Below, piece by piece: positions 30,101 through 57,100 of a stretch of DNA of 64,000 bases. The first letter of the stretch is position 1; every line of letters begins with the position of its first letter. Where the stretch lies: positions 162,047 through 226,046 of the forward strand of contig CACVBU010000700.1 in assembly GCA_902728285.1 (NCBI GenBank), written 5' to 3'. Source of the DNA: Clytia hemisphaerica. Taxonomy: Eukaryota; Cnidaria; Hydrozoa; Leptothecata; Clytiidae. Below the pieces are notes generated by a model, which was not told the origin of the DNA, did no database searches, and was given only the letters and a program-made list of their open reading frames with translations. A program made the translations under genes and the position numbers.

Positions 30101-33100
30101 GATATTACTTCACGGGCCCAATAGCTGATTGTTTGTAAGTGACGTAAAATCAGTCAATACGTCACTTTCAACCAATCAGCTTTTGGGTCCGTGGAAGACA
30201 TTGCAATGATGCAGATCATGAATTGCGTCTGCTTGGTACAGTTGACTTTCTAATTACAGCTTTAATTGAAGTCATAGAAAATTTTCTTCATATTAAAATG
30301 GTCCAAATACGGAGAGTTTTCTCCTGGTACTACAGTTTTCAAGTTGATGAAAACATTTTTTAACTTTTTGTTGTTGAAAACATCGTGCTATTCTGAACCA
30401 CAAAAAGTTCGAATAATAGAGGTTCCAATAATAGAGGTTCCAATATAAGAAAGACATGCTAGGTAAGATAAATTTGAGAATCAATATTTTTTCAAACTGA
30501 ATCAAAATTTCAGGTATTATTCAATAAAGCATATAAAATTCCGATGGCTTGTAGTAAACAAATGGGTTATGGGATTTTAAATAATGCTAATCTCTTTATT
30601 TCTTTTTCAAGAAATGGAAAAAGACTCTGGATGACAGGAGCCAAGAAATTGCTGATATCATCCACCATTTTGAACACAACGAGTTACAACAAAAGAATCG
30701 CGAAAATGTTTTAACCTCACATCAAACAGTCAAAGATTTGATAAAAGAACAACTCCATAAGCTAACATCCATGAAAGAAAAAACAAAAAATCTTGAAATA
30801 ATGTCTACCCAATTAACTGACTTGATATCAAACACTTTGGCCGAAGTTTCATCGCTTAACGATAAATCTCAATTGGAAAGATTGAAAAATGATATGGAGA
30901 ACAAAATTAACGAGTTACAAATTGAGAAAGATTCTTTTTCAGAAAAGTGCATCAAACTGAGAAATGTCGAGATCTTGTTGTCAAATTGTGAAAGGATTGT
31001 GTCTTCTGGTGATGATCTGGTGAAACGTATCGACCAACATATACTTACCCTAGAGGGGAATGATCTCGAGTCCCTTCACAAGCTTCACGACTGTTTGGCA
31101 AATGAGAGAAAATGGTTAACAGGTGCTCGAGCTATGTTTTCGTTGGATTTGATGGGAATTGAAGAGGAAACAGAAATGACCCTTCAAATGGAAAAGAAAC
31201 AAAAATATCAAAAAGATTTACCAAAACATGAAGCTAATTTGAAAGAGTTATGTAAACTTTGTGAGAGATTACAAACAAGCAATGTCACTGGTTTTGAAGA
31301 ACCGTTAAAAGTCTGCGAAGAATTGAATGTGGAATTTCAAGAGGTCAAACAGCTCTCGGTGGAACAGAATGAAGCCTTTGAAGATGCAATGGCTGAGGAA
31401 AATGAGTTTTATGCACAACTTGAAAACTTGTACTCTTGGATGGAAAAGGTTATAATATTTTTCAATCCTGTCTAAAGTTTCTTTTAATTATTATCATCTT
31501 TTTGCTACTCTTCTTACTGTGTTCTTACCCTTCCTCAACACATAATTTCTACGTCAACTTTCACTATGAACATTTCCATTTCATGTTGGTGTTTTTTAAC
31601 TATTTGGCTATGTTTGCGTTCCTTATAACAATTTTTCCAGGTGAAGGTATAAGCTATAAAATTGCCAGCTTACAACATTACTTCTCTTGATTTGACTAAA
31701 ATACAATATATTTTCCCTTATTTCAGGCTGGAGACATGCTACAAAAAGACAATTTCTCAGACTCAGATTTACAAACCATTGTGGAAGAACAAGAGCAACA
31801 TTACCATTCTTTCACCGAGATCTGTCAAAGTAGTATCTTACTATCAGACAAAATGGTATCGCAGACACGCCAAGAATCCTTCAATCAACAAATGGAACAA
31901 GTGAAGCTACAATGGAGCGATTTATGTTACCACATAACTCAACGCAGGCGAGCTAAAGAGTTACAGACACTGAAAAATGAAAAAAACGCAACCTTGTCAT
32001 CAACAGAACCTTTAGAAACACAGTTATTACATATCAATCAGCTGGTAGAGAAAATAGACTCGGTCGGTTTTGAAAGTAATGAAGCAGAACCTCTTAAAAA
32101 TGAGATTTTAGGCCATAAAAGGGACTTAGAGAAAGCTTCGATGCTGAGAGATAAGATGAAGAAACGCTATACCGAAGAAGTCAAGAATGTCATCATCAGT
32201 GTTGAAGAGTATGTTATTGATATTGATGATCCAGATTTTGAGCACGTGATCGAAGTGTTATATTCAAATCAAACCAAACTTGATTCAGCTCGATCAACGA
32301 TGGATGATCTTTCCAAGGAGGAAGAGAATCTGAAGGAATGGCTACCTATTGAAGATTACAGAGAGTACGTTGAATGTGTAACTGAAATACAAGAGATTTT
32401 CTATGAGAAAGAAACAAGACATACTAACATGGCTTTGATTGTTCAGGTAGGTTTTGAAATTTAATGGACAGTGTTGCAATTTTTCCGTCTGTAATCGGTC
32501 CGGTTGAATTTTCTAGCATGGATTTCCGCCGTCTAAATAACAGTCCGTTAAAGCAGAATTTTCGTGAACTTAGAGTCCGTTATCCAGTCTATCAAAAAGC
32601 CTTAAGTGAAGCCCAGGCTTGAGTCTGCCTTGAAATATCCCTAATTTTTTTCATAGTTCACCTTTATTTTTTAGGTGGATAAGCAACTACGTGGTGTCGA
32701 AATCATTTTACAAAGCATCCAAGAAATCGAAAACAACGAAACTGACGATTTACAAGAAAAGTTGAAAACCATCGATGAAAATATTCGTAGTTTGCAGCAA
32801 CTGAGAAAAGAGCTGACCGGTTCTAGAAAATTACTGGAGAAAATTGATGTTGATTTTTATCCGTTGATCGTTAGAACAATGCAGGAGAAAGTGAGATATA
32901 ACTTACCACTCATGGATCAATATTTGACGTCTTTAAAACGTCTTAGTGAGGATACGAATACGACGTTGATCAATTTTATGGACGGCCGTAAACAAGCAGA
33001 GGACTACCTGGAGAATCTAAATCAAACAGAATGCTTCTTCACTACAGAACTGGTAAAGGCTGATTGTCTTTATAACATGAAGATTGTTCTGTCTACCGTA

Positions 33101-36100
33101 TCCTCGGCAATTAAAGATCATCGTGAACAAATGAACAAGCTGTTGAACTATTGTGATTTTTTTATGGGGAGATTCCCTGATAAAAAGAAAAGGACGTTGC
33201 TTGGTTGTTTAGAGTCTTGTCGGAATCGAATGTACGATTTGGAAGACCACTTAACAAGAGAAGATGCAATTGTTATGAAGAAACTGTTAGTCTTGAATGG
33301 TATCGAAACACAGTTGGCTACTATAGAAAATTCACTTGAACAGTCTGAACTGTTGATTCAGTCTGACCAACCGTTTGATGCTTTAGCTATGACTCGAATG
33401 TTAACTGATTTCGAGGACACTATTGATACTCTGGAGACTGAGAACCAGGAATTCTTTAATGATCTTCCCGAAAAAGATTTATTAGAGATTTTGGAGTTTA
33501 TCAACCGAGTTCAAGGCGCGTTAGATCAACTTAAAACCGACCTTGATGTTTATTGCATTGCTAAAGCTGAACGCGGAGGGAAATCAAAAACTAATTTTGA
33601 CTACTTGGAGATCATTGAATTGCCATGTATTTCAATACAGCCATTGCTGGTTGAATATTTAGACGAATCTGATGATGAAATTGTGGTCAAGTCCCCATCA
33701 TCATTGAAACGAAATAGAGGACCATCTATAGACGAGTTTCTTTGTAGGGAGCTTGAAACTGCAAATCAAGAAAATGCTTTAGAGTTTCAATTTGATTCTA
33801 GTTTCAAAGAAGACGATTCTACGCTAGGTTCTCAAGACTCCGATACATTTGCAAGAACTCATGATACTTCAACTCTTGATTTCAAATCTCAAGAGCGAGA
33901 TACTATTAAACGCAAGTTATTTTCAAATCAATCTCCCGAATATAGCTCTGAAACTGTTGAAAGTTTCCAAGAATCGAGCACCTCAATACTATCTCCTGAA
34001 GGTAGTGCTGTGAGTTTTGAGGGAAGTCGTTTAGATTTGACACAGGACCTTAATGTATTTGACAGCTCTTCTTCAATGGACGAAACAACTATATCAAACT
34101 GTGAAGATGTATCCTCCGAGACCGCCGAAACCAATTCTTCGGATCAAGACTCTGCAGAACAAAGTATACAAGAAAATGCATCAGATTTGAATCAAAACGA
34201 GTTAATTTCTGTTAAATCCAAGAGGATCGTCATAGATGATTGCTCCATGGTGAAACTTGAATCTCCAGATCATTATGCATTGGAAAGGACTATGGAGCTA
34301 AGTGATTCTGAAGCAGGAAGCTCAAGTACTCCAGAAACATCCGAAGAAAATCTAGAGAGCTCTGCAGATTATCTTACGCCTTCATTATCAAGTTCAAGCG
34401 ACATGCAAAATGACTTTTCCTTTGTAACAAGTGAGAATACGGAGACCGTTGTAGAACCAATAATTGGTCAAGAACCTTTAACTTCGTCTCCCTGGATAGA
34501 GAAACAACCAACTGCAGATGCGCTAAAATCTTCAGAGTCTGACTCGTTCGATGATCCAGAAACTATCAACATGTTACAAGACAAGAAAGCAAAATCTCAA
34601 TCACCATCAAATCAACAAAAAGTACAAGCTCGGGATGAACTTCCAATCGATCAGAAAAACTCAGAGCCACCTTCGGGAGATGAAGAAACTATTATTAATT
34701 CTAGGATCGACCTTCAAGTATCTGGTACACTTCCAAGGGAAGTAGATGAAAAACAGAAACGAAATTTAAGGAATCTAGACTCTCCAGTAATCAAAGATGC
34801 TTCTGGTGAATCCGAAACTTCTGCTGAAGATCTTCCACCCTTGATATCAAGTTCGAGTGACTCTATGGACGATTTATCATTATCAACAAGTAAAAAGCTT
34901 GAAACGATCTCAAAACAATCCACGTTTGACGATTCAAGGAATGTAGATTCTCCGACCCTTCAGCAGCAGCAAAATATTTCCTTGGTATCAAGTGAGAACC
35001 TGCCTACAATTAACGATTCTACGGATGCAGAATCTATCCAGCAAATCATGTCCGAGTCATCTCCTGAAGGGCTAAAAATTGATTCAGGAATAGCAAATGC
35101 TCCGAATGTTAACCAAACATTGAGGTTATCGCCTGAAGAAGAGGCAAAAACAGTAGATGAAATCACCAATGAGATCTGCGAAGACCAAGAAGGAGCTAGT
35201 CAAATCAATGTCCAACTTAAAGTCAGATTGCTGGAGCTTGCCATTTATAAACATCAAAACGTTGTCAGTGAACTTCTGGATGATTTAAAACATCCTTTAG
35301 ATTCTATTGAAGAGATGTTTGAGCAGAACCAGAGAATATCCAAACTCTTCGATAAACATAAGACAATTTACCAACTGCTTTATCAACATTACACCAAAGA
35401 GATCATGGATTTACTAGACGGTAATGCAAAGGAGAATCTAGAACACTCTTTCCAGAAGCTTCGGTGTGATCATACCGAATTGGAACATTTACTTGATGAG
35501 AAAGCTCACTATCTGAATAAATGTCAGGACAATAAATTCGAAGCTGAAATGATTCTGGATGCTTCAGATGCTTTACTGAAACCATTAGAGGATGAAATTG
35601 ATGGTATCAATAAACTGGAGAATTTAGCGGAGATGAAAGCTTCTTATGCGATTTTTTCAGAACGTATAAGCTCTGCTCTCAAAGATATCAGTGAATTTGA
35701 GACTGTTGATGTCTCAGAATTACCAGTAGTTGATCATGATTTTATTGAATGTAAAATGAAGACTTCCGCAGATAGAATCACTAGTTTGTTGTCCAATTTT
35801 CAAGACTTGACTCATTCCTGCAATCAAAAGATTGAATTTAAACAAGACGTTACCAGCGAAGGGAGGGAGATTCTGGCTGATCTTACTAGTCTGGAGTCCT
35901 CTTTGGAAAGATGTAAAGCAGTTATGGAGATCGATAAAGTAGAAATGTCAAAAGATATCTTATTTCAGAGACAATCTCTTGGAGAAAAGATTGAACAATT
36001 TGTAGCTTTGGATATTTCTGGTGTGCCTTTGCAGGACCATGGAGAATTGGATATGCTGAAGGCTTCTGTTGTCATCAAATTACAAGAACTTGACAGACAT

Positions 36101-39100
36101 GCTCTCTCATCGAACGAGAACCTTCCAGAAGAATTGAGCTCTGTAATATCTTTGATGGAAGCACATGCATCAAAGGTCATGGAAATGGCACCAATTGAAA
36201 CTGGACAGTTAGTAAGGACTGAATTGACTCAAGAGAAGGCAAAACCATCAATAGAGATCGAAATATCTCCAGAGCAAGTCCAACTATCCGAAAAGACTGA
36301 AGTCGCTCAAGTTGAAAGTAAACCTTCTAAAAAGACAGAAGTCACTCCTGTGGAAGCTCAACCATCTGAAAAGACTGAGGTCGCTCCTGTGGAAACTCAA
36401 CCATCCGAAAAGACTGAAGTCGCTCCTGTGGAAACTCGACCATCCGAAAAGACTGAAGTCGCTCAAGAGGAAGTTCATCCATCTGAAAAGACTGAAGTCG
36501 CTCCTGTGAAAACTCAACCATCTGAAAAGACTGAAGTCGCTCCTGTGGAAAATCAACCATCCGAAAAGACTGAAGTCGCTCCTGTGGAAACTCAACCATC
36601 CGAAAAGACTGAAGTCGCTCCTGTGAAAACTCAACCATCTGAAAAGACTGAAGTCGCTCCTGTGGAAAATCAACCATCCGAAAAGACTGAAGTCGCTCCT
36701 GTGGAAACTCAACCATCCGAAAAGACTGAAGTCGCTCCTGTGAAAACTCAACCATCCGAAAAGACAAAAGTCGCTCCTGAGGAAAATCAACCATCCGAAA
36801 AGACTGAAGACGCTCAAGAGGAAGTCCAACTATCCGAAAAAACTAAAGTCGCTTCAGTTGAAAGTAAACCGTCTGAAAAGACTGAAATTGTTCCAGTGGA
36901 AGCTCAACCATCCGAAAAGACTGAAGTCGCTCAAGAGGAAGTTCATCCATCTGAAAAGACTGAAGTCGCTCCTGTGAAAACTCAACCATCTGAAAAGACT
37001 GAAGTCGCTCCTGTGGAAAATCAACCATCCGAAAAGACTGAAGTCGCTCCTGTGGAAACTCAACCATCCGAAAAGACTGAAGTCGCTCCTGTGGAAACTC
37101 AACCATCCGAAAAGACAGAAGTCGCTCCTGAGGAAAATCAACCATCCGAAAAGACTGAAGACGCTCAAGAGGAAGTCCAACTATCCGAAAAAACTAAAGT
37201 CGCTTCAGTTGAAAGTAAACCGTCTGAAAAGACTGAAATTGTTCCAGTGGAAGCTCAACCATCCGAAAAGACTGAAGTCGCTCAAGAGGAAGTTCATCCA
37301 TCTGAAAAGACTGAAGTCGCTCCTGTGAAAACTCAACCATCTGAAAAGACTGAAGTCGCTCCTGTGGAAACTCAACCATCCGAAAAGACTGAAGTCGCTC
37401 CTGTGGAAACTCAACCATCCGAAAAGACTGAAGTCGCTCCTGTGGAAACTCAACCATCCGAAAAGACTGAAGACGCTCAAGAGGAAGTCCAACTATCCGA
37501 AAAAACTAAAGTCGCTTCAGTTGAAAGTAAACCGTCTGAAAAGACTGAAATTGTTCCAGTGGAAGCTCAACCATCCGAAAAGACTGAAGTCGCTCCTGTG
37601 GAAGCTCACCCATTTGAAAAAACTGAGGTCACTCCTGTGGAAACTCAACTATCTGAAAAGACTGAAGTTGCTCCAGAAAAAACTCAACCATCTGAAAAGA
37701 CTGAATTCGCTCCTGTGGAAACTCAACCGTCCGAAAAGACTGAAATCGCTCCTGTGGAAGCTCAACCATCTGAAAAGACTGAAGTCGCTCCAGAAAAAAC
37801 TCAACCGTCCGAAAAGACTGAAGTTGCTCCTGTAGAAGCTCAACCATCTGAAAAGACTGAAATCGTCCCAGTGGAAACTCAACCATTCAAAAAGATTGAA
37901 ATCGCTCAAGAGCAAACTCAACCATCTGAAAAGACTGAAACAACACCGGAGGAAGTTAAGCCATCTGAAAAGACTGAAGTCGCTCCTGTGGAAACTCAAC
38001 CATCCGAAAAGACTGAAATCGCTCCTGTGGAAACTCAACAATCCGAAAAGACTGAAGTCGCTCAAGAGGAAGTCCAACTATCCGAAAAGACTGAAGTCGC
38101 TCCAGTTGAAAGTAAACCGTCTGAAAAGACTGAAATTGTCCCAGTGGAAGCTCAACCATTTGAAAGGACTGAGGTCGCTCCAGTGGAAACTCAACTATCT
38201 GAAAAGACTGAAGTCGCTCCTGTGGAAACTCAACCATCTGAAAAGACTGAAGTCGCTCCAGAGGAAGCTCAACTATCTGAAAAGACTGAAGTTGCTCCTG
38301 TGAAAACTCAACCATCTGAAAAGACTGAAGTCGCTCCTGAGGAAACTCAGCCATCCGAAAAGACTGAAGTCGCTCCTGTGGAAACTCAATCATCTGAAAA
38401 GACTGAAGTCGCTCCAGAGGAAACTCAACTATCTGAAAAGACTGAAGTCGCTCCTGTGAAAACTCAACTATCTGAAAAGACGGAAGTCGCTCCTGTAGAA
38501 GCTCAACCATCTGAAAAGACTGAAGTTGCTCCAGAGGAAGTTCAACCATCTGAAAAGAATGAAGTCGCTCCTGTGAAAACTCAACCATCTGAAAAGACTG
38601 AAGTCGCTCAAGAGGAAGATCAACCATCTGAAAAGACTGAAATCGTCCCAGTGGAAACTCAACCATTCAAAAAGATTGAAATCGCTCAAGAGCAAACTCA
38701 ACCATCTGAAAAGACTGAAACAACACCGGAGGAAGTTAAGCCATCTGAAAAGACTGAAGTCGCTCCTGTGGAAAATCAACCATCCGAAAAGACTGAAGTC
38801 GCTCAAGAGGAAAATCAACCATCCGAAAAGACTGAAATCGCCCCTGTGGAAACTCAACCATCTGAAAAGACTGAAACAACACCGGAGGAAGTTAAGCCAT
38901 CTGAAAAGACTGAAGTCGCTCCTGTGGAAAATCAACCATCCGAAAAGACTGAAATCGCTCCTGTGGAAACTCAACCATCCGAAAAGACTGAAGTCGCTCA
39001 AGAGGAAGTCCAACTATCCGAAAAGACTGAAGTCGCTCCAGTTGAAAGTAAACTGTCTGAAAAGACTGAAATTGTCCCAGTGGAAGCTCGACCATTTGAA

Positions 39101-42100
39101 AAGACTGAGGTCGCTCCAGTGGAAACTCAACTATCTGAAAAGACTGAAGTCGCCCCTGTGGAAACTCAACCATCTGAAAAGACTGAAACAACACCGGAGG
39201 AAGTTAAGCCATCTGAAAAGACTGAAGTCGCTCCTGTGGAAAATCAACCATCCGAAAAGACTGAAATCGCTCCTGTGGAAACTCAACCATCCGAAAAGAC
39301 TGAAGTCGCTCAAGAGGAAGTCCAACTATCCGAAAAACTGAAGTCGCTCCAGTTGAAAGTAAACTGTCTGAAAAGACTGAAGTCGCTCCTGTAGAAACTC
39401 AACCATCTGAAAAGACTGAAGTCGCTCCAGAGGAAGCTCAAATATCTGAAAAGACTGAGGTCACTTCTGTGAAAACTCAACCATCTGAAAAGACTGAAGT
39501 CGCTCCTGAGGAAACTCAGCCATCCGAAAAGACTGAAGTCGCTCCTGTGGAAACTCAATCATCTGAAAAGACTGAAGTCGCTCCAGAGGAATATCAACTA
39601 TCTAAAAAGACTGAAGTCGCTCCTGTGAAAACTCAACCATCTGAAAAGACTGAAGTCGCTCCAGAGGAAACTCAACCATCCGAAGGGAATGAAGTCGCTC
39701 CTGTGAAAACTCAACCATCTGAAAAGACTGAAGTCGCTCCTGAGGAAACTCAGCCATCCGAAAAGACTGAAGTCGCTCCTGTGGAAACTCAATCATCTGA
39801 AAAGACTGAAGTCGCTCCAGAGGAAGCTCAACCATCTGAAAAGACTGAAGTTGCTCCAGAGGAAGTTCAACCATCTGAAAAGAATGAAGTCGCTCCTGTG
39901 GAAACTCAACCATCTGAAAAGACTGAAGTCGCTCAAGAGGAAGCTCAACCATCTGAAAAGACTGAAATTGTCCCAGTGGAAACTCAACCATTCAAAAAGA
40001 TTGAAATCGCTCAAGAGCAAACTCAACCATCTGAAAAGACTGAAACAACACCGGAGGAAGTTAAGCCATCTGAAAAGACTGAAGTCGCTCCTGAGGAAGA
40101 TCAACCATCCGAAAAGTCTGAAGTTGCTCCAGAGGAAGCTCAACTATCTGAAAAGACTGAAGTCGCTCCTGTGGAAACTCAACCATCCGAAAAGACTAAA
40201 GTCGCTCCAGAGGAAACTCAACCATCTGAAAAGACAGAAATATCTCCTGTCGAAGTTCAATCATCTGACAAGACTGAAAAGGCTCCAGAGGAAACTCGAC
40301 TAACCGAAAAGACCGAAGTCGCTCCAGAGGAAACTCATCTACCTGAAAAGACCGGGTACTCTCCTGATAATGCTGAGGTGGCTCCAGAGGAGACTCGACT
40401 ACCTGAAAAGACTGAAGTTGCAGAGGAATTTCAACCAGAAATACCATACAATCCTTTTCTCTCATCTTATGAAACAGGATTCAAAACCAGCTCACCTAAA
40501 GTTCATACAGCTCTAACTGAAAATGAAGGTTCAAAGAAACAACAAAATTCAGATGATTTATCCATCAACGATCGTAGATCTATGCAAAACTTGGGAGCAA
40601 TCGACCAATGTGAAAATGATGAAAAAGTTAATAATGAAATTGAAGAAGATTATGACCCTTTCCTTTCTGCATACGAGACAGGTTTCACTACCAGATCCCC
40701 TGATGACATCTTAACAGATGGTGTACATAAATATGTAGATTATGGTGATGTTTCTTCATGGCTTCAAGATAATAGTATTCAAATGCTTAGCGAGATTGCC
40801 ACAGATGGGGAAGAATCATCCAGAGAAGACAGCATCACTGTATCAGAATGTGATTCAATCTCACTCCACGATTTAAACCATGAATTGAAAGGCATTGAAA
40901 TTGAGCTAGGTGATTCTGAGAATCTTACTTTAGATGAACGAAAGATGTTGGTAGATGTCCTGGATAAGGATTTGGCCAGGATTAACCAGCATCTTGGTAA
41001 ACACAAAGTAGATAGTGCTGAATTTGAGGAATTCGAAAAAGTATGTTGTCGTAAGAATCATTTGGGAGAGCTGATAAAATCCTTTGAATCAATCGTCGAT
41101 CAACAGCTTGAGAAGAAGGCATTGTACGAAGAAAAGATTGACGAAGCTTTGAGAATGTTATCTGTAGTTGAGGACGAGAGTTGTCAGAAAGTGGATGTTG
41201 ATCTCCAAGATCGAGTCAAGATGGTCGAAGAGTATTTGGTACATTTGCAATCTATTGACCAGTTAGTTGGTGGTTGTTTTGACGATAATGCCATGTCCCA
41301 TTTACTGCCATCTGTCGATCAAGATCATTTACAAAGACAATTCACCATGTTTTCTGAACGATTCAATGACGTGGAAGAAAGTTTGAACAATCAAAATCAT
41401 TTCTTGAAACAGAAACTTGCATTGAAAGTGACTTTCGATAAACAGTTAAATGAACATTTAGTTAAAAACACTGATGCGGAACCAGAGGAGACTTCTCGTG
41501 TTGAAGACATTGAACAAGAGTTGAAATCTCTCGAGTTGGACTTATCACTGTTTAAAAACGTTCTCTCCTCATCCGAGATCAAGGACATCGAAAACAAAAT
41601 CGATCAACTTCTATCACATGGAAAAACCAATGTTGAACATATGCAGGAATCATCAGAAGCAACCAAAAACTCGCCTCAAGAAAACAAAGTTTGTGACTTA
41701 AATTTATGTGAAAACCGAGAAGATAACCCAAGCCAGAGTTCACTTGGAGTTTCAGCCACCATTCCAGCAGTGGTTGAACCATTGGAAAATGTTGTAAACT
41801 CTTCGCAAGAAAAACAGGTACCAGAAAATACAGAAAGCCCAAAGGATGCCGAGCCTTCAGGAGATGTAGACAACTTATTGACTGAATTACAAGCTGGTCA
41901 CAAATCTGATGACTCTACGGAGAGATCACTCCAACCAACCACAGAAGAAAACTCAAAAGATGAAGCCTACATTCAAAACGATGGACCAGGAAATGACTCT
42001 TTGCAAAACAACGTGCCAAATGTATTGGCTGCTTCTGGAGGTTTAAAGGAATCCAACATCCAAGAAACCGAAAATTCCCCAGATTCTATAACCACAAGTC

Positions 42101-45100
42101 AAAATTTAAAACAAGAGCACCTTGCACCGTTTGCGAAAGATCTTCAACAAGTCATGGAATCTGAAATATACTTTTCAAGTGATTCTCTAGACTCTGGTGA
42201 CGGGAAAGAAGTTGGCAAGGATGAAGAAATGACCACTGATCAAGCCAAAGTATTGGTGCTGGAGATTTTGGAATCAGCTGTCAATAAATTGAATGAATAC
42301 GAGAAGATCGATTATGATGGATGTAAAGATATCGGAGATATGATTGTACAGTTGCAGAATCTGGATATGAAAGCAACCAGAGATAGGATTGCGGATTGCC
42401 AAGCATTACTGGTTTCTTTGAAAAGTTCGTTGCCTGAAAACGAGGTTCTGGATTTGGAAGAGGAGGTTCAGAATCTGTTGCAATGTTTTGATGAAACCAT
42501 TGAAGAAGTCAACAAGAAGAAGTTTGATTACCAGAAAGTTTTGATTCTACAGACTGATTATGAAGAAGAATTGACCAAGCTTTCTGATTCGTTGACTTGC
42601 TTTCGTGAAGAAAATAGTCAACAACAAACGCATTTATCTTTGAATGATATGCATAAACAACTGGTGAAAGATAAAACAGTACTCGGCGATATGCATCAGG
42701 AGTTGAATCGTGTCAAGGAACAGAGAATTGAGATTCAAGATTCATTGCCAGTGAAAGTTTTTGAGGAACTGGAGATGATGGAAAATGAACTTGCTGATGA
42801 ATTAAGTGCAGTTGCATCTTCAATTGTCAAGGAAGGATCTTTTCTGGAGAATCTGAAAGCCACAAAACGAACCCTATCGTTGACCATCTTGAAACAAATT
42901 GGATCTGTTGAGACATTAGCAGAGGAAATCAAGAAGCGAGATTCAAATGGTGCTGAGAATCTGCCGACTAAAGCTTTCGATTTGAAAGAAAGTTGGAATC
43001 TGACGAAGCCGGTCATCAAAGCATCTTTTAAGAATCTTCCTGCTGAGGATGTTAATGAACTGCAAGCTTACTCCGAGCATCTTGATGGACAATTTGTATT
43101 GATACAGAATCGATTTGATCAACCAGATTTCGTTTATAATAGTTTGGAACAGAAATTCAAGAGCTGGCAAAGATAAATTTGAAGAATTAAAATCATCTTG
43201 GAAGGATCGCAACGTAGGCACTTACGATGTCGAGATGAAGCGACAAGATCAAATTACGCGAGATGTGGAGAAGAGAGCTCTTGAGCTTGGAATATTGGAT
43301 CAGAATCTGACTGGAACAATATCTGGCGATGTCAAAGAATCCTTGATTCAGAAAGTTGAAGATTTGAAAATATTGGTTGAGAATTGTTCACATGAAGTCA
43401 AATCTTTGTGGATTGCTTCTAAAGAAAATCTGAAATCTTTAGAAGAAGGTCGAAACGCATTTGAAGAATGGATGAAGGCTGCAAAGGAAGTGAATGATAG
43501 TTTTGAAGAATCTGGTGATCTCCAACAGGAGAGATTTAATGTTGACAATCTAGAGGCATCTTACGAGGCGTTGGATTCAGTCATTTTACCAATTCATAAA
43601 GCAGAATGCCAGGAAATGTTGAACAGCTTGAAATCGAAGATTCGTGAATTTGATCATAAGAAAGATGAACAAACGCGAAATGAAAAGGATTCTCGACAAC
43701 TGGAGAAAATGTATAAAGCAACGCGTAATTGGTTGAAAACAATGCTTAAGAATGTGACCTCAGTCGATCAGGATGTAACCACACTCGATGAATGGTTAAA
43801 TGATCTGAATGCATCACATCAGGAGTACCAGGAAGAAAAGAGTGACCTTGTTGATCTTTTAACACAACTGAGAGAAACAGGTCATCACCAGATGGTTGAA
43901 AACCTTGAAAACATTATTGCCAAAGTTGGCAAAGCTTTCGATACCAGACGTGAACGATTGGTGCATGATCTGAAATACCGAGATGAATATTTGAATAGAG
44001 TTGATGTTTTGATTAAAAATATTGAAAAGCAGGAGAAGCCTGTTTCAAATGAAGACGTTTGGGATGATGAACAATATCTGAAGCTCCAGTATACAATTGA
44101 TTCTCAAATTACTGAACTGGATACTCAACTCCAAAGAATATCTATCCAAATCCCAACTACAGAATTCAACAAATTTCGCTTACAGCTTGATCAATTGAAA
44201 GGGCGTGTTGATCATTTAAAACAGAAGATTAGCGAGCATCTGACGCTCGTAAAGTCGCATGAAAAGTCCATGCTTGATATGAGTTCGACTATCGAAGCTG
44301 CTCAAAAAGATATCGAGGAGATAAACCGAGTTACGGATCGAGTTCTCGAAGGGGAAAAAGAGCTTAGTACGAGTTTGTTAACTCAGACAGAATGTCGACT
44401 CCTTGAAGTGTCTTTATGGGTGAATGGATGTTCTAAAGATGTCAGTACTAATGATGGTGAGGATATCGAGGTTCGGGAATTGTTAGCAAGTTTTGAATGT
44501 AATGTGGAAACTACTAAAATGACATTGACCGATTTACGCAAAAAGATGGAAAGATATGACGAGTTTGTGTCTAAAGTGAATACATTAGGTTCGCTGGTGA
44601 GTTTGTTGCAAGACCAAGAGGCTAAAGTGCATCAAGTTGCCAGCGTGGAGCATTTGATGAAGGAGTTGAACGAGGTTGGACAGGATGTTGAACGTTCGGA
44701 TTTAATACAAAAGCATCGTTTGTCAATATTGTTGGAAATTGAAGATATTGAAAGCCGATGTGAAAAGCTTTTGGCAAGATTTGAAGAATCGAAATTGGTT
44801 CAAGATGAAAGTTTGATGAATATACTTGAGGGGATAACTGTATTTGTGGAAAATGTCCAACAGTATTTGATTGAAGGAGACGATCTTTCTAACGAAACTG
44901 TGACATCTTTGAAAGACATCTTGAATAATCTCAGATTATACAAATCGAAAAGTGGAGAACTTTTACAAACCGTTTTCGAACATTCGACAACTGATAATGT
45001 AGAATTCATAGTACAAATCAATGAAATCAAAAACAATGTATCGAGTTTACAAGATTTACTGTCAGCTAAGGAAGTTTCCGTATTGGAACAAATCTCTGCT

Positions 45101-48100
45101 AAGAATTCGATTCATGGCAGGTGCGAAGATCTTGATTCAGCCGTCAATCTGCTTGGAGATGAGCAGCGAAAACTAGATAGAAGTTTTGAAGAATGGAGAC
45201 GCAAAAATACTCTGGGAGATATAATCCAACATTTAGAACCACTTCGTGACCAATCAGATTCTATTTCAAAAGAGTTGCCCATACTGAAAAAGGAGGCGGA
45301 ATCATTGAAACGCGACGATTCTTTTGACCACGAGATTCAAGGACGAATCGAGAAGCTAGAGTGTAAACAAGAAGTGTTGATTTCATCTTTACATCGTATT
45401 GGAGAAACCTCGAAGAAACTTTTAAAATACATCAACAAAATGGAGTGGCCTCTCTTCCAACAGCTCGTAGATGAGTCATCTGAGACTTCAGTCAACCACA
45501 ATTATTTGAAAGGACGTTTAGAAATTGTTTACATGAAGTTATTGAAAAGGAAAACCAAGCTTGATAATCTGATTAGTACCCAATCATCTTTGACGGATCT
45601 TGAAAAAGAAGTTTTTTCAAATCTCCCTCAAGTCATGGAAACAAAAGACAAACTAGATCGTTTTAAACAGGAATTTAGTTCACTGTTAGAACGTTTCGAA
45701 ATGAATCTGACAATGAATAAAGATTCGTCTTCCTTACTCTTCAACGATACAATTGAAGATTCTTCATTTTCTTTGGGAGACGTTCTCGAAGAAGAATCTC
45801 TTAACCAATCAGATGGGCCAGACAGTGTTTTCTCATCAGAGAATCTTAACAACAGCTTCGGTTTACGTTGGTTTAAACAACAACCTCCCACCAGTACACC
45901 TCTTGTACCAAATGACACTGAAATTGACGAGTGGTTGATCAAAGCGCACCAAGGACTTCACGATTGCCAGAACATCATGGAAGAAAATGATAGTGATTTA
46001 ACCAAACAGCTAAGACAGGTACTTTCACGATTTATATTTTCTATGCCTTTCTTCGTATACTCATTCCCATGTATTGTATTGAAATCTGTGTGCACCTTTT
46101 TTGCTACCGTGAGGAAACCACTCTCAAGGAAATGAGTATAAAACGCTGACCATAGATTTATAAAGCTTGAAGGGCTAGATGTCGTGCTTTAAGCCATCGC
46201 AGGCAAAAAAAAGTGAATATCGGAAAAAATATTGTTGCTATTGTTTTCAAAAACCCGCGAAGCTTCTGATTGGTCAAGTGCTGAAATTCTTTTATGTAAT
46301 GTTACGTGACCTAAGTAGGATTTCCTACCTAACCTCGGCACACTTTTCAGCAAAAGTACGCCATCCAGCTCTTCGGGCTTTATAAATGGTTTCCACATGG
46401 TAGCAAGAGAAGAGTGCACGTTTAAAGCGAATTGACTTGAATAAACTAAAGTAGAATCAAAGAATGAACTCTTCGTTGAGTATCTCTGTTTTTTTACAAG
46501 GCTGTCTTTATGTATCAGAAAATCTGACAATTTTTCTGACCTCTATTGGGCTTTTCCAGAAATTTTCCGTACCCATTCCGTATGTCTATCCTGTTGCAAG
46601 AATAAAGGGCACGTTTAAAGCGAACGGACTTGCATAAACTAGATGATTTCCATTTTTCGAGTTCCGCAGCTTCCTGGATATCTGACCTGAAAAGAATCGA
46701 CCCCTGAATGTCCAAGTGGATAGAATGGATAGAAGGGTTGAGAATATCCATGCATTTTGTACTGTACACCCTGAATATCCAATCATTCTGTCTTGTACCC
46801 CCTGGATATCCTCTCCCTCTTATAAGGTCCTACCCCATGGATATCCAAATAGCATGAACCCCCTTCCAGTGTCAATAAGTTGTATTTTGATGCAGTTGAA
46901 GATGAACATTTAGACTTGCTGACTTCTTGGTTTTGTGATGAATTCCTACAGTACTTAGATTATATCTTTTTTAACATTTTGAATATTTTCCTTCTTTAAA
47001 GAGACGTTTCCATACGTTAACCCTTCTAATTGAGGTTTTTCTCACCCTATAAATCTTATACGACCTCTTTTAAAAGCTAAAATAAACGATGAAAAATAGT
47101 TTTCATGTTTTTATCACAAATTGTTATTATAGGACTTGAGAGATGAACTACGAGCGCTCGTGGACACTGTCCCATATATCGAGTTTGAAAGATCTTCAAA
47201 TATTTTACAGGATTTAAAAACAAGCGTTCAAGTTCTAGACAACAGTATTCGAATCCAAAGACCTTTGACATCATCCGTAGCTGGTAGAACTGTACAGAAG
47301 AAAGAAGCTGGTCGCGAACGTGTTGAGAGCTTGGAAATTCTACTCGGCGATCTTTATGTGGAACCTTTACAAATATCTTTACCACAAGAAGGAGTTGGAC
47401 ATCTTTCAAACAGACAATCTCACCAAAACAATATTACTATGGAGAATAGCCAATCAACGCGGAATTTAGTTTTCCACGAGGACATTTGCAACGAATTTAC
47501 CATGAGTGATGTTGAAACATCTAGTGGATTTGTTTTTGAAAATTTGGATAATCCGAAAGAGTCGGAAAATGAACTAGAACATAATGAAGCAATAACAGAA
47601 AAAGTAGAGTCGATGCTGCTGGATAACTCGAAAAAACAACAGGATGAATCTGTCAAAGCCAAAGTAGAAATAACATCAAAATCGATCAAGAGTCCAGAAT
47701 CAAACGAAAGTGATATTGATTCGTATCAATTTGTCAATGAGGAAATCGATAGCGAACAAATTTCTGGACCATCAAGAGTGGAACTGGTTTCTGAGTCAAC
47801 GGAAGACGAAGCTGAAAAGGTTTCGGAACCAACAAAAGTTGACCAAATTTCCGAACCAACGGAAGTTGAACAAGTTTCTGAACCAACGGTAGTCGAACAC
47901 GTTTCTGAACCAACGGAAGTTGAACAAGTTTCTGAACCAACGATAAAGGAACAAGTTTCCGAACCCTCAGAAGTTGAACAAGTTTCTGAATCAACGAAAG
48001 TCGAACAAGCTTCTGAGCCAACGAAAGTTGAACAAGTTTCCGAACCAACCGAAGTCAAACAAGTTTCCGCACCAACAGAAGTTGAACATGTTTCCAAACC

Positions 48101-51100
48101 CTCAGAAGTTGAACAAATTTCCAAATCGACAGAAGTCGAAAAACTTTCTAAACCAACGGAAGTCGAAAAAGTTTCTGAACCAACGGTAGTCGAACACGTT
48201 TCTGAACCAACGGAAGTTGAACAAGTTTCTGAACCAACGATAAAGGAACAAGTTTCCGAACCCTCAGAAGTTGAACAAGTTTCTGAATCAACGAAAGTCG
48301 AACAAGCTTCTGAGCCAACGAAAGTTGAACAAGTTTCCGAACCCTCAGAAGTTGAACAAGTTTCCGAACCAACGGAAGTCGAACACGTTTCCGAACCAAC
48401 GGTAGTCGAACACGTTTCTGAACCAACGGAAGTTGAACAAGTTTCTGAACCAACGATAAAGGAACAAGTTTCCAAACCCTCAGAAGTTGAACAAATTTCC
48501 AAATCGACAGAAGTCGAAAAACTTTCTAAACCAACGGAAGTCGAAAAAGTTTCTGAACCAACGGAAGTCAAACACGTTTCTGAACCAACGGAAGTTGAAC
48601 ACGTGTCTGAACCAACGATAAAGGAACAAGTTTCCGAACCCTCAGAAGTTGAACAAGTTTCTGAACCAACGAAAGTCGAACAAGATTCTGAATCAACGAA
48701 AGTTGAACAAGTTTCCGAACCCTCAGAAGTTGAACAAGTTTCCGAACCAACGGAAGTCGAACACGTTTCCGAACCAACGAAAGTCGAACAAGTTTTTGAA
48801 CCAACGAAAGTCGAACAAGTTTTTGAACCAACGAAAGTTGAACAAGTTTGGAAACCAACGGAAGTCAAACAAGTTTCCGAACCAACAGAAGTTGAACATG
48901 TTTCCAAACCAACAGAAGTTGAACAAGTTTGTGAACCAACGATAAAGGAACAAGTTTCCGAACCCTCAGAAGTTGAACAAGTTTCTGAATCAACGAAAGT
49001 CGAACAAGCTTCTGAGCCAACGAAAGTTGAACAAGTTTCCGAACCAACGGAAGTCAAACAAGTTTCCGCACCAACAGAAGTCGAACATGTTTCTGAACCA
49101 ACGAAAATCAATCAAGTTTCCAAACCCTCAGAAGTTGAACAGGTTTCCAAACCAACAGAAGTTTCCAAATCGACAGAAGTCGGAAAACTTTCTAAACCAA
49201 CGGAAGTCGAAAAAGTTTCCGAACCAACAGAAGTTGAACACGTTTCCGAACCGTCAAAAGTCAAAGAAGTCTCTGAACCATCGAAAGTGAAAAAAGTTTC
49301 CGAACCAACGAAAGTCGAACAAGCTTCTGAATCGACGAAAGTCGAACAAGCTTCTGAACCAACGAAAGTTGAACAAGTTTCCGAACCCTCAGAAGTTGAA
49401 CAAGTTTCCGAACCAACGAAAGTCGAACAAGTTTCAGAACCAACGAAAGTGGATCAAGTTTCCGAACCAACGAAAGTCGAACAAGTTTCCGAACCAACAG
49501 AAGTCAAACAAGTTTCTAAACCAACGAAACTCGAACACGAACCAACAGAAGTCGAAGAATTTTTTGAACCAACGAAAGTCGATCAAGTTTCTGAACCAAC
49601 GAAAGTGGAACAAGTTACTGAACCAACGAAAGTGGAACAAGTTTCCGAACCAACGAAAGTGGAACAAGTTTCTGAACCAACAAAAGTCGAGCAGGTTTCC
49701 GAACCAACCAAAGTCGAGCAGGTTTCTGAACCAACAGAAGTTGAACAAGTTTTTGAACCAACGAAAGTGGAACAAGTTTCTGAACCAACGAAAGTTGAAC
49801 AAGCTTCTGAACCAACAAAAGTGGATCAAGCTTCCGAACCAACGAAAGTGGAACAAGTTTCTGAACCAACGAAAGTGGAACAAGTTTCTGAACCAACGAA
49901 AGTGGATCAAGCTTCCGAACCAACGAAAGTGGAACAAGTTTCTGAACCAACGAAAGTTGACCAAGTTTCCGAACCAACGAAAGTTGAACAAGTTTCTGAA
50001 CCAACGGAAGTTGAACAAGTTTCTGAACCAACGGAAGTTGAACAAGCTTCTGAACCAACAAAAGTGGATCAAGCTTCCGAACCAACGAAAGTGGAACAAG
50101 TTTCTGAACCAACGAAAGTGGAACAAGCTTCTGAACCAACAAAAGTGGATCAAGCTTCCGAACCAACGAAAGTGGAACAAGTTTCTGAACCAACGAAAGT
50201 GGAACAAGTTTCTGAACCAACGAAAGTGGAACAAGTTTTTGAACCAACAAAAGTGGAACAAGCTTCCGAACCAACGAAAGTGGAACAAGTTTCTGAACCA
50301 ACGAAAGTTGACCAAGTTTCCGAACCAACGAAAGTTGAACAAGTTTCTGAACCAACGAAAGTGGAACAAGTTTCTGAACCAACAAAAGTCGAGCAGGTTT
50401 CTGAACCAACAGAAGCTGAACAAGTTTTTGAACCAACGAAAGTCGAACAAGTTTCCGAACCGACGAAAGTGGAACAAGTTTCCGAACCCTCAGAAGTTGA
50501 ACAAGTTTCTGAACCAACGAAAGTGGAACATGCTTCCAAACCAACGGAAGTCGAAAAAGTTTCTGAACCATCGAAAGACGAAAAAGTTTTCAAACCATCG
50601 AAAGTCGAACAAGTTTCCGAACCAACGGAAGTCGAGCAGGTTTCTGAACCAACAGAAGTTGAACAAGTTTTTGAACCAACGAAAGTGAAACACGTTTCTG
50701 AACCTACGAAAGTGGAACAAGTTTCTGAACCAGCAAAAGTCGAACAAATTTCCGAACCAACAAAAGTCGAACAAGTTTCTGAACCAACAGAAGTTGAACA
50801 AGTTTCCGAACCAACGATAGAGGAACACGTTTCCGAACCGTCACAAGTTGAACAAGTTTCTAAACCATCGAAAGTCGAACAAGTTTCTGAACCAACGAAA
50901 GTTGAACACGTTTCTGTACCAACAAAAGTCGAACAAGTTTTCGAACCAACGGAAGTTGAACATGTTTCTGAACCAACGAAAGTTGAACAAGTTTCCGAAC
51001 CATTACAAGTCGAACAGGTTTCTGAACCAACGGAAGATGAACATGTTTCCAAACCAACGGAAGTCGAAAAAGTTTCTGAACCATCGAAAGACGAAAAAGT

Positions 51101-54100
51101 TTTCAAACCATCGAAAGTCGAACAAGTTTTCGAACAAACGGAAGTCGATCAAGTTTCTGAACCAACGGAGGTCGAACAAGTTTCTGAACCAACGAAAGTC
51201 GAACAAGTTTCTAAACCAACGAAAGTCGAACAAGTTTCTGCACGAACGGAGGTCGAACAAGTTTCTGAACCAGCAAAAGTCGAACAAGTTTCTGAACCAA
51301 CGAAAGTCGAACAAGTTTCCGAACTAACGGAAGTCAAACAAGTTTCCGAACCAACGAAAGTTGAAAATGTTTCCAAACCAACGGATATCAAACAAGTTTC
51401 TGAATCAACGGAAGTTGAACAAGTTTCTGAAGCAACGATAGAACAATTTTCCGAACCAACGGAAGAGGAACAAGTTTCCAAAACAACGGAAGTGGAACAA
51501 CTTTCTGACCCAACGAAAGTGGATCAAGTTTCCGAAAGAATGGAAGTTTCTTACTCAACGGAACCAACGACATCAGAGCAAGTTTTTGGACCAACGACAG
51601 CAATAATCGACACTGACAGCTTTTCGATAGAAGACATTCTTTCTTTGAAGGAATGCATCGTTACGATTGACGAAAATATTTCGAATTTACCAGAAGTGAA
51701 AGGGAAAATTATCCACCTTCAGGTATTATTCTCCTTTGATTCTTAATTAATAGAAATGATTATTGTAAGAGTTTTCGAAAATAGCCATACAGAATCTAGG
51801 CAAGTAAAGCAATTTCGACATCTACCATATAAATGAGTTTTCCGACCCTTGATATCTAGACCATAGTTTCAAGTGACTTAGATAAAAAACATCGGCTTTC
51901 AAATCACTAATAAATGACGATCAATTTCAACATAGCTTTCCTTTCTGTTTTTTTGTAGGATTTGAAGAACAAAGTTTCTGGTATGGTATCAAAAGAGGCT
52001 GACGATTTGCTTGAAGTTGTTGAAGAAAAGATTGAGATTATGAGGGAAATCGAATCTGATTTCATGGGACTCGAAGAATCTATCACATTGTTCGATCAGC
52101 AATCAAAGTCCTTCATGCGTGCTCAACAAAGTCTTGATAAACCATTCGTACAGCAAGCTAAGGTACTCCACCAGGTTCCCAATCAACGGCTCCCATCCCT
52201 CTGTTTGTTAATGTTCTATATTTTATACCCAATCCCTAACGAACGTAGTCCCTCACAAACACCTGCATTAATTTGATGTATTTTTAAGAATTTGGCTGTA
52301 TTCTGTGGTATCAGTAAATATAACGTTTTACTAATCGTTGACTTTCATGTACCGGGTATGATAAAAAAATGTCCCTAAATTTGAAAAAATGTCAAATATG
52401 CGTAAAAGATAACGCTTAGGTCTTAAGAATAAATGAATTGTTTTTAACGATTGTGAGTGACCTCTATAATGCGGATTCCTCTTTTTTAGATTCAGAAAGA
52501 TTTAGTATCCACATTAGAGCATATCGATTCTCAACAATCCATGTTAATGCAATACTTATCGGAAGAAGGGCAAGAGCAAGTCTACCAACGTTTAGACTCC
52601 GTGCAAGAAATTTATTTGAATATCACCGAAAAATTCACTGATTATGTAACAGAGATGGCTTCTAAATGTTTCTCTGAGATGGTGATTCACCATATTGTGT
52701 TGCAAGAACTGATCAAGCAATTGTTGGAGTATAAAGATGGAAATTTGGTCGATCTTAATATCCAGGTACGTTTGGTGGAACTTTAGAGAACATAATTTTA
52801 CTTTTTTGTTAAGTTTTAGAGTCTACGGTCACTCTGTGATCACATTAGTTAAGTAGAATGAGTATGCTCAACTTGTGGTTGTCTGTGGAGGTAGGAGTGA
52901 TTTGGTATACCCTTTTTACGCTAGATTTGAGAGATCCGAAAGTGAGGGGAACACTTCAGCTCCTACCTAAATCTCATTCTCGTGTTAGTGCTCGGGAACC
53001 AGACCGGACCCGACTTATATATTTTAAGACCAATGCTTTACCCACTGAGTTACACGTGATGTCGGAGGGCTGAGGTACTGCAACTCTCTCTAATTCGAAC
53101 CTCTATTATTCTAATCTCTCTGTAATTCGAACTAAAGCATTGATCTGATCAGCTGGAAAGTTGTATAATAAACACTCTCTGTAATTCGAATCTTTATCTT
53201 ATTCAAAGGAAATTTTAGGTCTCTTGAAGATCGAATTGGAGAGTTAAGTCGGCTGTACTTCGAACATCTTGAAAGTTTGTTAAGCGACAACTGGTGCAAT
53301 TGGAAGTTTGGGTTTTATCCCTTAGAAATTAAAACTCCGGTTTTTTATTCTCGTTTCATTTTCTCGTTTCATTTTCCTCACAGCTCTTACTCCAAGTTGC
53401 TCGTCAGTATTTGATTCGCTGTGAAGACGAAATTCTGCACCAAGCATTTTACATCCAACAAAATCATTTCTTCGAGTGTAATGTCTTCGATCAAAAAGTC
53501 GTTCATTTCCAACAGATTGTGGAGAAAGTGAAAAGAGAATTGATTGGCGTCATGAAAGTTCATTTGACGGGTGTTGAATTGTTGGTGGATTTTGTTGAAG
53601 CTTTTCATGATGAGTTGTTGAGTCTGGAAGATTCCTATTACGTAAGTGTTGTACAATCTAACTCTTCCATATTCGCTCAAGAGACAAAAATAAAAAAAAG
53701 AACTTTTAGCATATCAAATTTTGTCATTTCACCCCATCGTCTTTTCGAAATGCTAATTCTTTGCTACGCCTCTATTCTCTACATTCTCTCCTAATTTAAC
53801 ATCTTCCCATCACAAAGATTTTTCGTGAGCAAAAGGTTTATGTCTCTTGAAGTTTATAAATCGCTGTAATTTAATAAATGCGAGAACAATTTAATTTATT
53901 GTTTTACGGGCCAAGCTACCCAAAAAAGAAAACATAAAAATAAAAGTAGAATTTCTCCTTTAACATCTCCTAAAAAGGCAGCAAAAACTAATTCATCTTG
54001 ACAAAAATGCGAAATAGAAAATAAAAAGACACAAAGAGCTCGAATTCATGGATAAAATGAAAAATTGAACACGAATTTCTCAAAACCTTAGAAAAACTAC

Positions 54101-57100
54101 CAAAATTTTTAAAATTGGCAGTCTGTAAAGCAATGAAAATAATATGTACTATCAAAATCAATTTTATTTTTATTTCGATTTTTGGGATTTCAGGGTCGGA
54201 CGGGCCTGTAAAACAACTAATCAAATAGGTCTCGCCTGATCACATATTCGCTCCAAAATAAGATATATAATAAGATTCTTCTCTCAACAGATACCATTGG
54301 AGGAGGTCCAGGATCGTCAAGAAACTTTGGAGAATCTTCATGTCTGGTCGCTCATTCACAAATCATCAAAATCCATCGAAGATTCGACGCCATTACTCAA
54401 TGAATGTCAATCAATACTGGAGGAGTTGTTGGTTCGGTCTTTGGCTCAACAAGAAGATATTGATGGTGATCCAGAGGAATACATGCTGTTGAATTCCGTT
54501 AAAATGAACTCTAATCTATACGATAGATTGCGTATGGAATCACTGATGTTGAGTCCGATTAGTGAACGCTCGGAAACATTATCTAACGATGGTTTGATTT
54601 CACCTCCACCTTTGTCAATATCATCTGTTTATGATAGTGGACAGAAAAACACAAGGAGAAGATTGTTTGAAGCAGACGACCATGATAAGGAGAAGAAGGA
54701 ACCTCCCTCTTCTGAATCCATACCTTTGGAGTCTTGTACAGATGAGGAAAACGTGCGTTCCCTATCAGGTCAGTCGCCAACAGAGAAGGTTTCCTTTAAT
54801 GCTAACATTCAAAAAGAAGAACCACGCGAAAGCCTAGATCTTAATAAAGAATATGATGCTGGATCAATATCACCAACAGTGCACTCGGATGAAAAACATG
54901 ATTCTCTTGCAAAGGAAACGTGGCTCTCTTCTAAATTCGACAACGCAGTTGATGAACCAAAATTAGTCTCCCTCAATGATGAATTTGGTCATGACATGTT
55001 TGATGACTACATGATGTCCCCAGAAAATGTGTCATTTGAACAAATACCTAATATTGAAGAACTGTTATTGAAAGTAAAATCTAGTGATTCTAAGATGGAT
55101 GCTGTTTCAAACTTGAATAACCAATTTGATGCTTGTGCCAAAGAAACCTCTGGAAGTGACGATGAGCTATCAACTGGTAAAGACGGTGATCAAGATACAA
55201 GTGCAAGTTGGCTGTCAACTCAATTTGATAAAGATCAGTTACATACAGAATCACCAAGAGCTACCAATGACCACGGTCTTCTTGATGAAATGCTCTTGTC
55301 ACCAATAAACGTAGAATACGAACAGATACCCAATGTTGAAGAACTACTGTTGAAAGTGAAGCCAACAAAATCTTCAAAGAATGCTTCCAAGGAAATGATA
55401 TTGCCTTCGAAGTTGGAAAATGAATTTGATGCTTGTTTACCAGAGCCGTCGGTAACCGAGAAAAAAGAATTGAAACAAGAGCCAGGTATTGATATGGTAG
55501 GCAGTGACAATTCTGATAAATTTGACGTTTGTTTACAAGAAAAGTATGAAGTTTATCCTACGGATAACACGACCTCAAGTGAAGATACAGATGAACTCTG
55601 CCAGCCTAACGATACAGAGATCTCACAAGACACATCAGATCTGTTGTACGATAGTTTTCAACCAACTGAACCGAGAACGAACTTTTCAGAATTCCAGTCT
55701 GAGGTCAAAATTGATTCGGAAGACGTATGTGATGAGCGAGTGCTACCCAACGACAATGCAGATGTTATTCAAAGATCGGTCAATGTAGATTCTACAAAAT
55801 CAGTATCTGAGCCATTGAAAAGTGACCACGGGCGGGTAATGAAGTTTGAAATCAACGAACCAAGCACAACTTCCGAAGATGTACCAGCAATACAAGATCA
55901 GGTCAAAGAAACTAATTTTCAAGAAAAGGAAGATGAACACGAACTAAAAATTGGTGCTCAAGACCTCTTTAATGTAGTTCCTCAGCCTGTTGAGAACTTG
56001 CTTACGAAAAATGATCCAAAGCTGAAAGTGGTGAAGCCAGAAGAGCAAGGAGAACCTACTACTGATGAGACGGCTCTCCATTCAGCAGTTGAAACCATTT
56101 TCATAGAACTCGCACCGTTGAATACAGATACGGTTATAGCTAGCAATCTAAATGACGAGTCCTACGTATCAAACGATGTTCTGATTTCTCCTGTTGATTT
56201 AGTTGCACCAAGTCTTATCGTTCCTGTCAAAGAGACTTTAGTTGAGTTATTACCGACCTTGACAGATCCTACTTTTGAAGTTCGACAACCAAAAGAACCC
56301 TTGTTAGACATGGATATTGGTGTAATGACAGCTGCAACAAAACAATCCAATTCTTTGGTCAATTCAAAAACTGACGTTGTTGTTAAACATACTGCTGAAG
56401 CATTGTCTCTGGCCCGTCTTCCAAAAGAACTCAAGCCTAGTACCCAGACCTCTGATGATTTACTTTTTGCTACAAATGACAAAGATTCTGATGTTGCAAT
56501 TAGGGATACTGTAAAAAATCCGTCCCTCATTGACTCATGCAGCAAAGAGAATACAGAAGGTCAAAATGTTTTGGTTGGCGCAGACAGATCTGAAATAGAT
56601 CAAAATACGCTTAAAATTGAATCTATCCCACAATCAGGACAGTCGACCGACGTACGCACCTTGGAACTATCTTTACCATTTGACCAAGATTGTAATGTCC
56701 CACAAAATATTGACAAGTCATCATCCGAAGCTGAAGTTAAAGACGAGGAAGAAATGTTACAAAGTCGTGAACATTTACCACCAGTTTTCAATCAAGGTGT
56801 AGCTGATCAAATTGACCCACATTCGTCCTCAGTTAACTCACTGGTGTCAGAATCAAGTGGTGTCTATTCTGCAGATACTGATGGGCTCCGGCTACCGTTA
56901 ACATACAAAATGATCCCTCATCATCAACAACACCAACAGCAGCCTTTGGAAGAAACAGATGACGTCACTCTGGTCAATATGGAAAATGAACCAAATCATT
57001 CGCCGAATGTTGACCGTAGACAATTTGTCGAAGACTGGGCTGCCTTTCATACAGTCATTTCAACAGAAGATATCAAGGATCCTGAAAAAACCAACCAACA

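Follow-up and report, generated by a model that had tools for sequence, protein, structure and literature searches.

A stretch of 64,000 nucleotides (nt) from the hydrozoan Clytia hemisphaerica (bases 162047-226046 of contig CACVBU010000700.1; hereafter the window) contains the bulk of a single large + strand gene, best labelled nesprin-like, in which two unrelated tandem arrays of short peptide repeats rich in P, E, V and K lie with sections of a spectrin-repeat rod on either side. The arrays look protein-coding, and we give roughly even credence to the proposal that they are translated parts of a nesprin-type giant, where they would form an entropic spring or a slack tether like the PEVK region of titin. 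The two arrays are as follows.

36281-40352, + strand: array 1, a 39-bp unit encoding 13 residues, consensus SEKTEVAPVETQP, 104.4 copies by Tandem Repeats Finder (TRF)
47787-51581, + strand: array 2, a 27-bp unit encoding 9 residues, consensus VSEPTKVEQ, 138.3 copies by TRF at 47820-51536

Results

Units and composition of the arrays

Array 1 is made of 78 clean units at 36287-39328 and 23 at 39367-40263; a single 38-base unit separates the two runs, and a few units at the edges are degenerate. Read in frame, array 2 has 140 units, of which 136 are exactly 9 residues long and four have 7, 8, 11 and 15 residues, the length differences being whole codons. TRF and in-frame counts thus bear out the numbers of about 107 and 140 units given in a preliminary description of this DNA. 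There are 50 distinct sequences among the 101 clean array-1 units and 58 among the 136 nine-residue units of array 2, and at most unit positions the residues vary while the charged or polar class is retained.

P, E, V and K make up 58-59% of array 1 and 61% of array 2, against 27-28% in two samples of the rod; proline accounts for 10-12% of the arrays and 1-2% of the rod samples, and L, I, M and the aromatic residues together for 3% and 26-30%, respectively. The arrays have a net charge per residue of -0.13 to -0.16 and a negative FoldIndex. According to the relevant passages of PMC12063666, a PEVK domain is defined by more than 40% P+E+V+K in 250 residues. Applied to the 12,774-residue model of the protein presented below, this rule is passed by 2,716 of 12,525 such segments, which form exactly two stretches (35789-40798 and 47277-52523), and these are the two arrays. 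The richness in P, E, V and K that had been described is therefore confirmed by composition and by the published rule. Hydrophobic residues recur at lags of 3/10/13 and 3/6/9 in the arrays and of 3-4 and 7 in a rod sample; given these lags, the arrays are without heptads, again as first described. The modelled distance between the arrays (about 2,070 residues) agrees with the earlier estimate of about 2,000 residues of helical rod, but the segment is not rod throughout, since disordered-looking 100-residue blocks, proline-rich or hydrophobic-poor, flank the arrays on the facing sides (immediately 3' of array 1 and 5' of array 2) and occur again at about 41.6-42.1 kb.

The PEVK regions of titin and of Drosophila Sls are termed molecular springs in the passages of PMC12063666 compared here, and the arrays resemble them in being extended coding sequences in which P+E+V+K exceeds 40% per 250-residue window; an Sls exon of about 1,700 residues, in the same passages, is similar in length to the arrays. 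Unlike titin and Sls, the arrays are net acidic and lie within a CH/spectrin-repeat gene. Pfam scans of the array exons and of further pieces, together covering part of the exons, gave no Ig, Fn3, kinase or PPAK match. The array-2 exon (47133-51746) matches Glutenin_hmw, a Pfam model for wheat glutenin, at 1.5e-32, far above the cut-off, which is a trap for automatic annotation. High-molecular-weight glutenins are plant storage proteins with short repeats, including 9-residue ones; we ascribe the match to low complexity and the 9-residue period rather than to kinship.

Coding character of the units

No in-frame stop was found in 77 array-1 units, the other two + strand frames having 10 and 133, nor in 68 array-2 units, where the other two frames have 3 and 59. 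Over all unit pairs, the ratio of the proportions of nonsynonymous and synonymous differences (pN/pS) was 0.52 and 0.64 in the first and second parts of array 1 and 0.47 in array 2, and 0.85-1.20 in shifted + strand frames. Changes between units favour synonymous ones, clearly in array 2 and marginally in array 1: in a nearest-neighbour test, 42 of 103 changes were synonymous in array 2 against 28% expected (p 0.004), with 22 of 52 in the first part of array 1 (p 0.024) and 12 of 36 in the second (p 0.31), p values that serve as a guide only, the units not being independent.

Another tandem repeat, with a 31-bp unit in 39.3 copies at 25217-26435, lies in a modelled intron and is open for more than 400 residues in all six frames; an open frame alone is therefore no proof of coding in such repeats. 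The intron 5' of the array-2 exon holds 2.3 copies of a similar 31-bp unit (46742-46811).

Gene model and reading frame

The exon model, obtained with a codon-usage script, comprises 55 segments and 12,774 residues; in window coordinates it extends from -2782 to about 70,822, with a weak last exon in addition. It is rough: the CH1 exons were missed, the last exon is weak and two junctions stand in for the frame changes described below. A first script, built on a hexamer model, had been dropped for the codon model, its small exons being implausible. Among the 55 modelled exons, 22 measure 285-345 nt, about one spectrin repeat each, and 48 have lengths divisible by three. The gene is apparently single-copy, with one match per query when pieces of two exons were searched against the 417-Mb, 951-contig assembly. 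Its features, by open reading frames (ORFs), exon script and domain matches, are:

81-930, + strand: CH1 domain, assembled by eye from four pieces (Pfam CH 5.3e-15; matches to 49 PDB sequences, headed by plectin)
1360-2047, + strand: probable CH2 domain, in pieces (a weak match that includes two guessed residues at a junction; Pfam CH 0.0028, short of the cut-off)
5000-32446, + strand: first rod section, with numerous exons measuring about 285-345 nt and, at 21920-22978, one that looks disordered
32675-46018, + strand: coding stretch with array 1 (ORFs, exon script; net 13,344 nt, divisible by three)
39329-39366, + strand: 38-base unit with frame change in array 1 (ORF 32675-39394, then ORF 39304-43176)
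43103-43176, + strand: overlap of two open frames, where the frame reverts (next ORF 43103-46135)
47133-51722, + strand: modelled exon with array 2 (ORF, exon script; 4,590 nt, divisible by three)
54291-57890, + strand: large disordered-looking exon without PEVK bias (P+E+V+K 29%)
58180-63388, + strand: second rod section with spectrin repeats, extending past the window to about 70,822

The reading frame had been listed among the features seen; array 2 keeps to one frame, but array 1 does not: the frame of 36287 is valid up to the 38-base unit, which shifts it by one base, and the remainder is one base out, the 23 clean units beyond 39366 all being in one frame within a 1,290-residue open frame. 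Of the random stops or frameshifts named beforehand as signs against the proposal, a frameshift is present in array 1, while in-frame stops are absent from the units tested. Because the pieces are all long open frames and alike in character, both frame changes are probably assembly errors, recent mutations being less likely; the sequence was kept as assembled and no base was restored. Provided that both are assembly errors, 32675-46018 would be one exon, which encodes in order a rod-like segment, a Ser/Asp/Glu-rich segment, a second rod-like segment, array 1, an NPF/DPF segment and a last rod-like segment. The NPF (40450) and DPF (40654) motifs that follow array 1 are paired, as YNPFLSSYETGF and YDPFLSAYETGF (window 40450-40690), and we take them to be perhaps sites of the endocytic-adaptor type.

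The earlier picture of two springs between rods proved too simple. Other large disordered-looking inserts, without PEVK bias, are found at 21920-22978, at about 33600-35200 and at 54291-57890, and the gene is a rod broken by at least five soft segments, the PEVK-like arrays being two of them. In the last of these inserts, an EQIPNxEELLLKV motif is duplicated, at 55038 and 55320.

Nesprin-like identity

The proposal of a CH and spectrin-repeat giant that carries both arrays stands, on the CH1 match given above and on Spectrin and Spectrin_SYNE1 matches in the same + strand gene. The exon 60579-61637 matches Pfam Spectrin with 31.9 bits against a cut-off of 29.9, weaker matches occurring in other exons, and Spectrin_SYNE1 with 28.9 bits against a cut-off of 35. 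In seven scanned pieces, Spectrin_SYNE1 gave E values of 8.6e-7 to 0.08 and was the top family in three, its best score (29.2 bits) being below the cut-off of 35; many rod exons were without any spectrin match in the Pfam scan. CH1 matches PDB actin-binding domains, the best of them being that of plectin and not of a nesprin. No plakin, GAS2, WW, ZZ or EF-hand domain was among the matches of the exons scanned, which are part of those modelled and stop short of the gene end, since a splice donor closes the last good exon. For KASH, PF10541 had no match in the genome, but controls were likewise silent; a KASH sequence used as query gave nothing, in a search that had no control; and motif and membrane-helix scans of the flank yielded no convincing candidate. 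Nesprin-like, by weak SYNE1 matches, is the best label for this gene, though unproven. Downstream of it, on the same strand, lies a lipocalin-like gene recognised by eye (L005 396-2820).

In the passages compared, the giant nesprins (vertebrate nesprin-1/2 and Drosophila MSP-300) likewise combine a CH domain at the N terminus with a long rod of spectrin repeats, and the rod of the vertebrate proteins is reported to include an unstructured region; in contrast to the gene described here, PEVK-type arrays go unmentioned in these passages, whereas KASH was not found in our gene. Caenorhabditis elegans ANC-1, a nesprin-1/2 ortholog, also has near-identical tandem repeats, but these are six repeats of 903 residues, predicted to be helical and spectrin-like according to the passages of PMC8139857 compared, against about 105 x 13 and 140 x 9 residues here.

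Origin and relatives of the arrays

The array-1 and array-2 units can be aligned as S-E-x-T-x-V, with 17 of 27 bases identical, but shuffling of the codons gave as good a value in 1,494 of 5,000 trials. A common origin was thus rejected, as no kinship is shown, and the arrays are unrelated as far as can be detected, as had been proposed; two separate expansions would be the simplest reading of the sequences. All nine matches of an array-1 slice to the assembly fell within this gene (131 of 251 candidates scored). An array-2 slice gave 39 matches among 132 scored of 586 candidates: nine in this gene, with 62-100% identity, and 30 at other places, with 12-41%. Of three of these other places that were inspected, one is an 18/27-bp array open on both strands and two lie in retroelement-like frames. 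Within the candidates scored there are no close copies elsewhere, and the idea of a genome-wide repeat family was discarded.

Protein searches returned no homologue of P0001 residues 1-1200 among 7,979 scored candidates and none of the 60579 exon among 395 giant-length proteins. For the array-2 region, the one match among 7,984 was to a mucin-binding protein of Lactobacillus gasseri (44% identity over 12%), which was taken as composition and not as homology. No title on PEVK arrays in nesprin was found in the openly licensed literature searched, which does not in itself show that they are unpublished.

Other observations in the genome

A mirrored element of about 1.1 kb (11094-12197) lies in a modelled intron and has a palindromic 42-bp unit arranged in two inverted arrays; its outer ends are inverted, with arms of up to 250 nt at 95%. 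Two retroelement-like open frames recognised by eye (contigs C59 and C355) start with a tandem SSADQLTSR-type peptide repeat, an in-frame expansion of a short repeat. The mitochondrial contig (C900; 14,551 bases) carries cox2-atp6-cox3-nad2-nad5-SSU rRNA-nad6-nad3-nad4L-nad1-nad4-cob-cox1 on one strand and the LSU rRNA on the opposite one, the genes other than cox1 and the rRNAs being named by eye. Two tRNAs were found by Rfam, and AGA read as Arg fits conserved cox1 positions. We take this gene order to be medusozoan-like, and most like that of hydrozoans.

Discussion

Several results weigh against translated, unfolded arrays. In each array, two of the three frames on the minus strand likewise have a low pN/pS (0.38-0.60), with 4 to 73 stops; for array 1 taken in full, the nearest-neighbour test falls short of significance (24 of 68 changes synonymous, p 0.14); the reading frame changes inside array 1; and AlphaFold2, run without an alignment on a 195-residue slice of array 1, returned a beta-solenoid with a predicted local distance difference test score (pLDDT) of 76.8 and a predicted template modelling score (pTM) of 0.71.

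The main rival explanation is tolerated expansion, in which unequal crossing-over grew short repeats in already disordered linkers; the arrays would be translated in frame, with neither length nor elasticity under selection. It is a serious if doubtful alternative. It gains from the weak constraint implied by the nearest-neighbour omega of 0.55-0.79, and from the identical twins that exist for 56 of 101 clean units in array 1 and 72 of 136 in array 2, as recent duplication would produce; moreover, blocks of units recur in array 1 and the gene holds further disordered-looking inserts. Drift alone, however, does not predict that unrelated units should have converged on 58-61% P+E+V+K and on a net charge of -0.13 to -0.16. 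The convergent composition favours selection, whereas the weak constraint on the units favours tolerance.

The arrays could also serve as platforms for multivalent binding or phosphorylation rather than as springs, which we regard as improbable. Array 2 has 124 [ST]xx[DE] sites, which we take to be CK2-like motifs, and in the array-1 unit variation is lowest over positions 1-5 (SEKTE); but the density of these sites is not common to both arrays (13 in array 1), and there is no known partner.

That the arrays are missing from the mature protein, through exon skipping or a broken gene, seems very improbable. The two frame changes would agree with it, as would the fact that the exon script spanned them by pseudo-introns of 56 and 109 nt, and skipping of the array-2 exon or of the net array-1 stretch, both divisible by three as listed above, would keep the frame. 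The pieces between the frame changes are nevertheless long open frames of like character, the pseudo-introns are poorly scored (donors -0.9 and -5.2, acceptors -1.7), and array 2 is under codon-level constraint.

Least probable of all is that array 1 folds as the modelled beta-solenoid, a stiff rod instead of a spring: strands in that model do repeat in step with the unit, but the five models range in pLDDT from 76.8 to 40.0, none of 29 PDB matches has E <= 0.001, 63 of the 101 units have V at position 9 and the other 38 have E, charged residues occupy four of the unit positions in 97-100% of cases, and AlphaFold2 yields confident but unrealistic beta-solenoids for repeats, according to the part of PMC11795689 drawn on here. 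For these reasons the solenoid is taken as an artefact, a judgement that concerns the array-1 slice only and has no shuffled-unit control. A 326-residue rod piece, also modelled without an alignment, came out as nearly all helix with a low pLDDT (47.7).

Returning to the reading as a spring or slack tether, elasticity fits the composition of the arrays. From that composition and from the place of the coding-like arrays between rod sections, we infer that each might be a long, acidic, proline-spaced and mostly unfolded stretch, with a possible role in tethering. Such stretches would let the molecule lengthen under load, as the PEVK region of titin does; if unfolded, they would be its softest part and would extend before the helical rod. 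At a contour length of 0.35 nm per residue, the value in the relevant part of PMC12063666, array 1 would add about 480 nm and array 2 about 440 nm. A bolder version, which we consider unlikely, is that two PEVK springs arose separately, each from its own unrelated repeat, in a nesprin-type tether of a cnidarian. Stretched, they would together add about 0.9 um, which could exceed the length of the helical rod, and this tether would be a main molecular spring of the cell alongside titin.

To conclude, elastic arrays would mean that titin-like springs had arisen convergently in a cytoskeletal tether, two times within the same gene and in an animal that is not a bilaterian. The give of a nuclear or organelle tether during muscle contraction, and the selection of PEVK composition for mechanics, would then become questions that can be asked. 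If the arrays are tolerated expansions, they would still be a clear example from nature in which repeats of unrelated sequence reached the same composition within a single protein.

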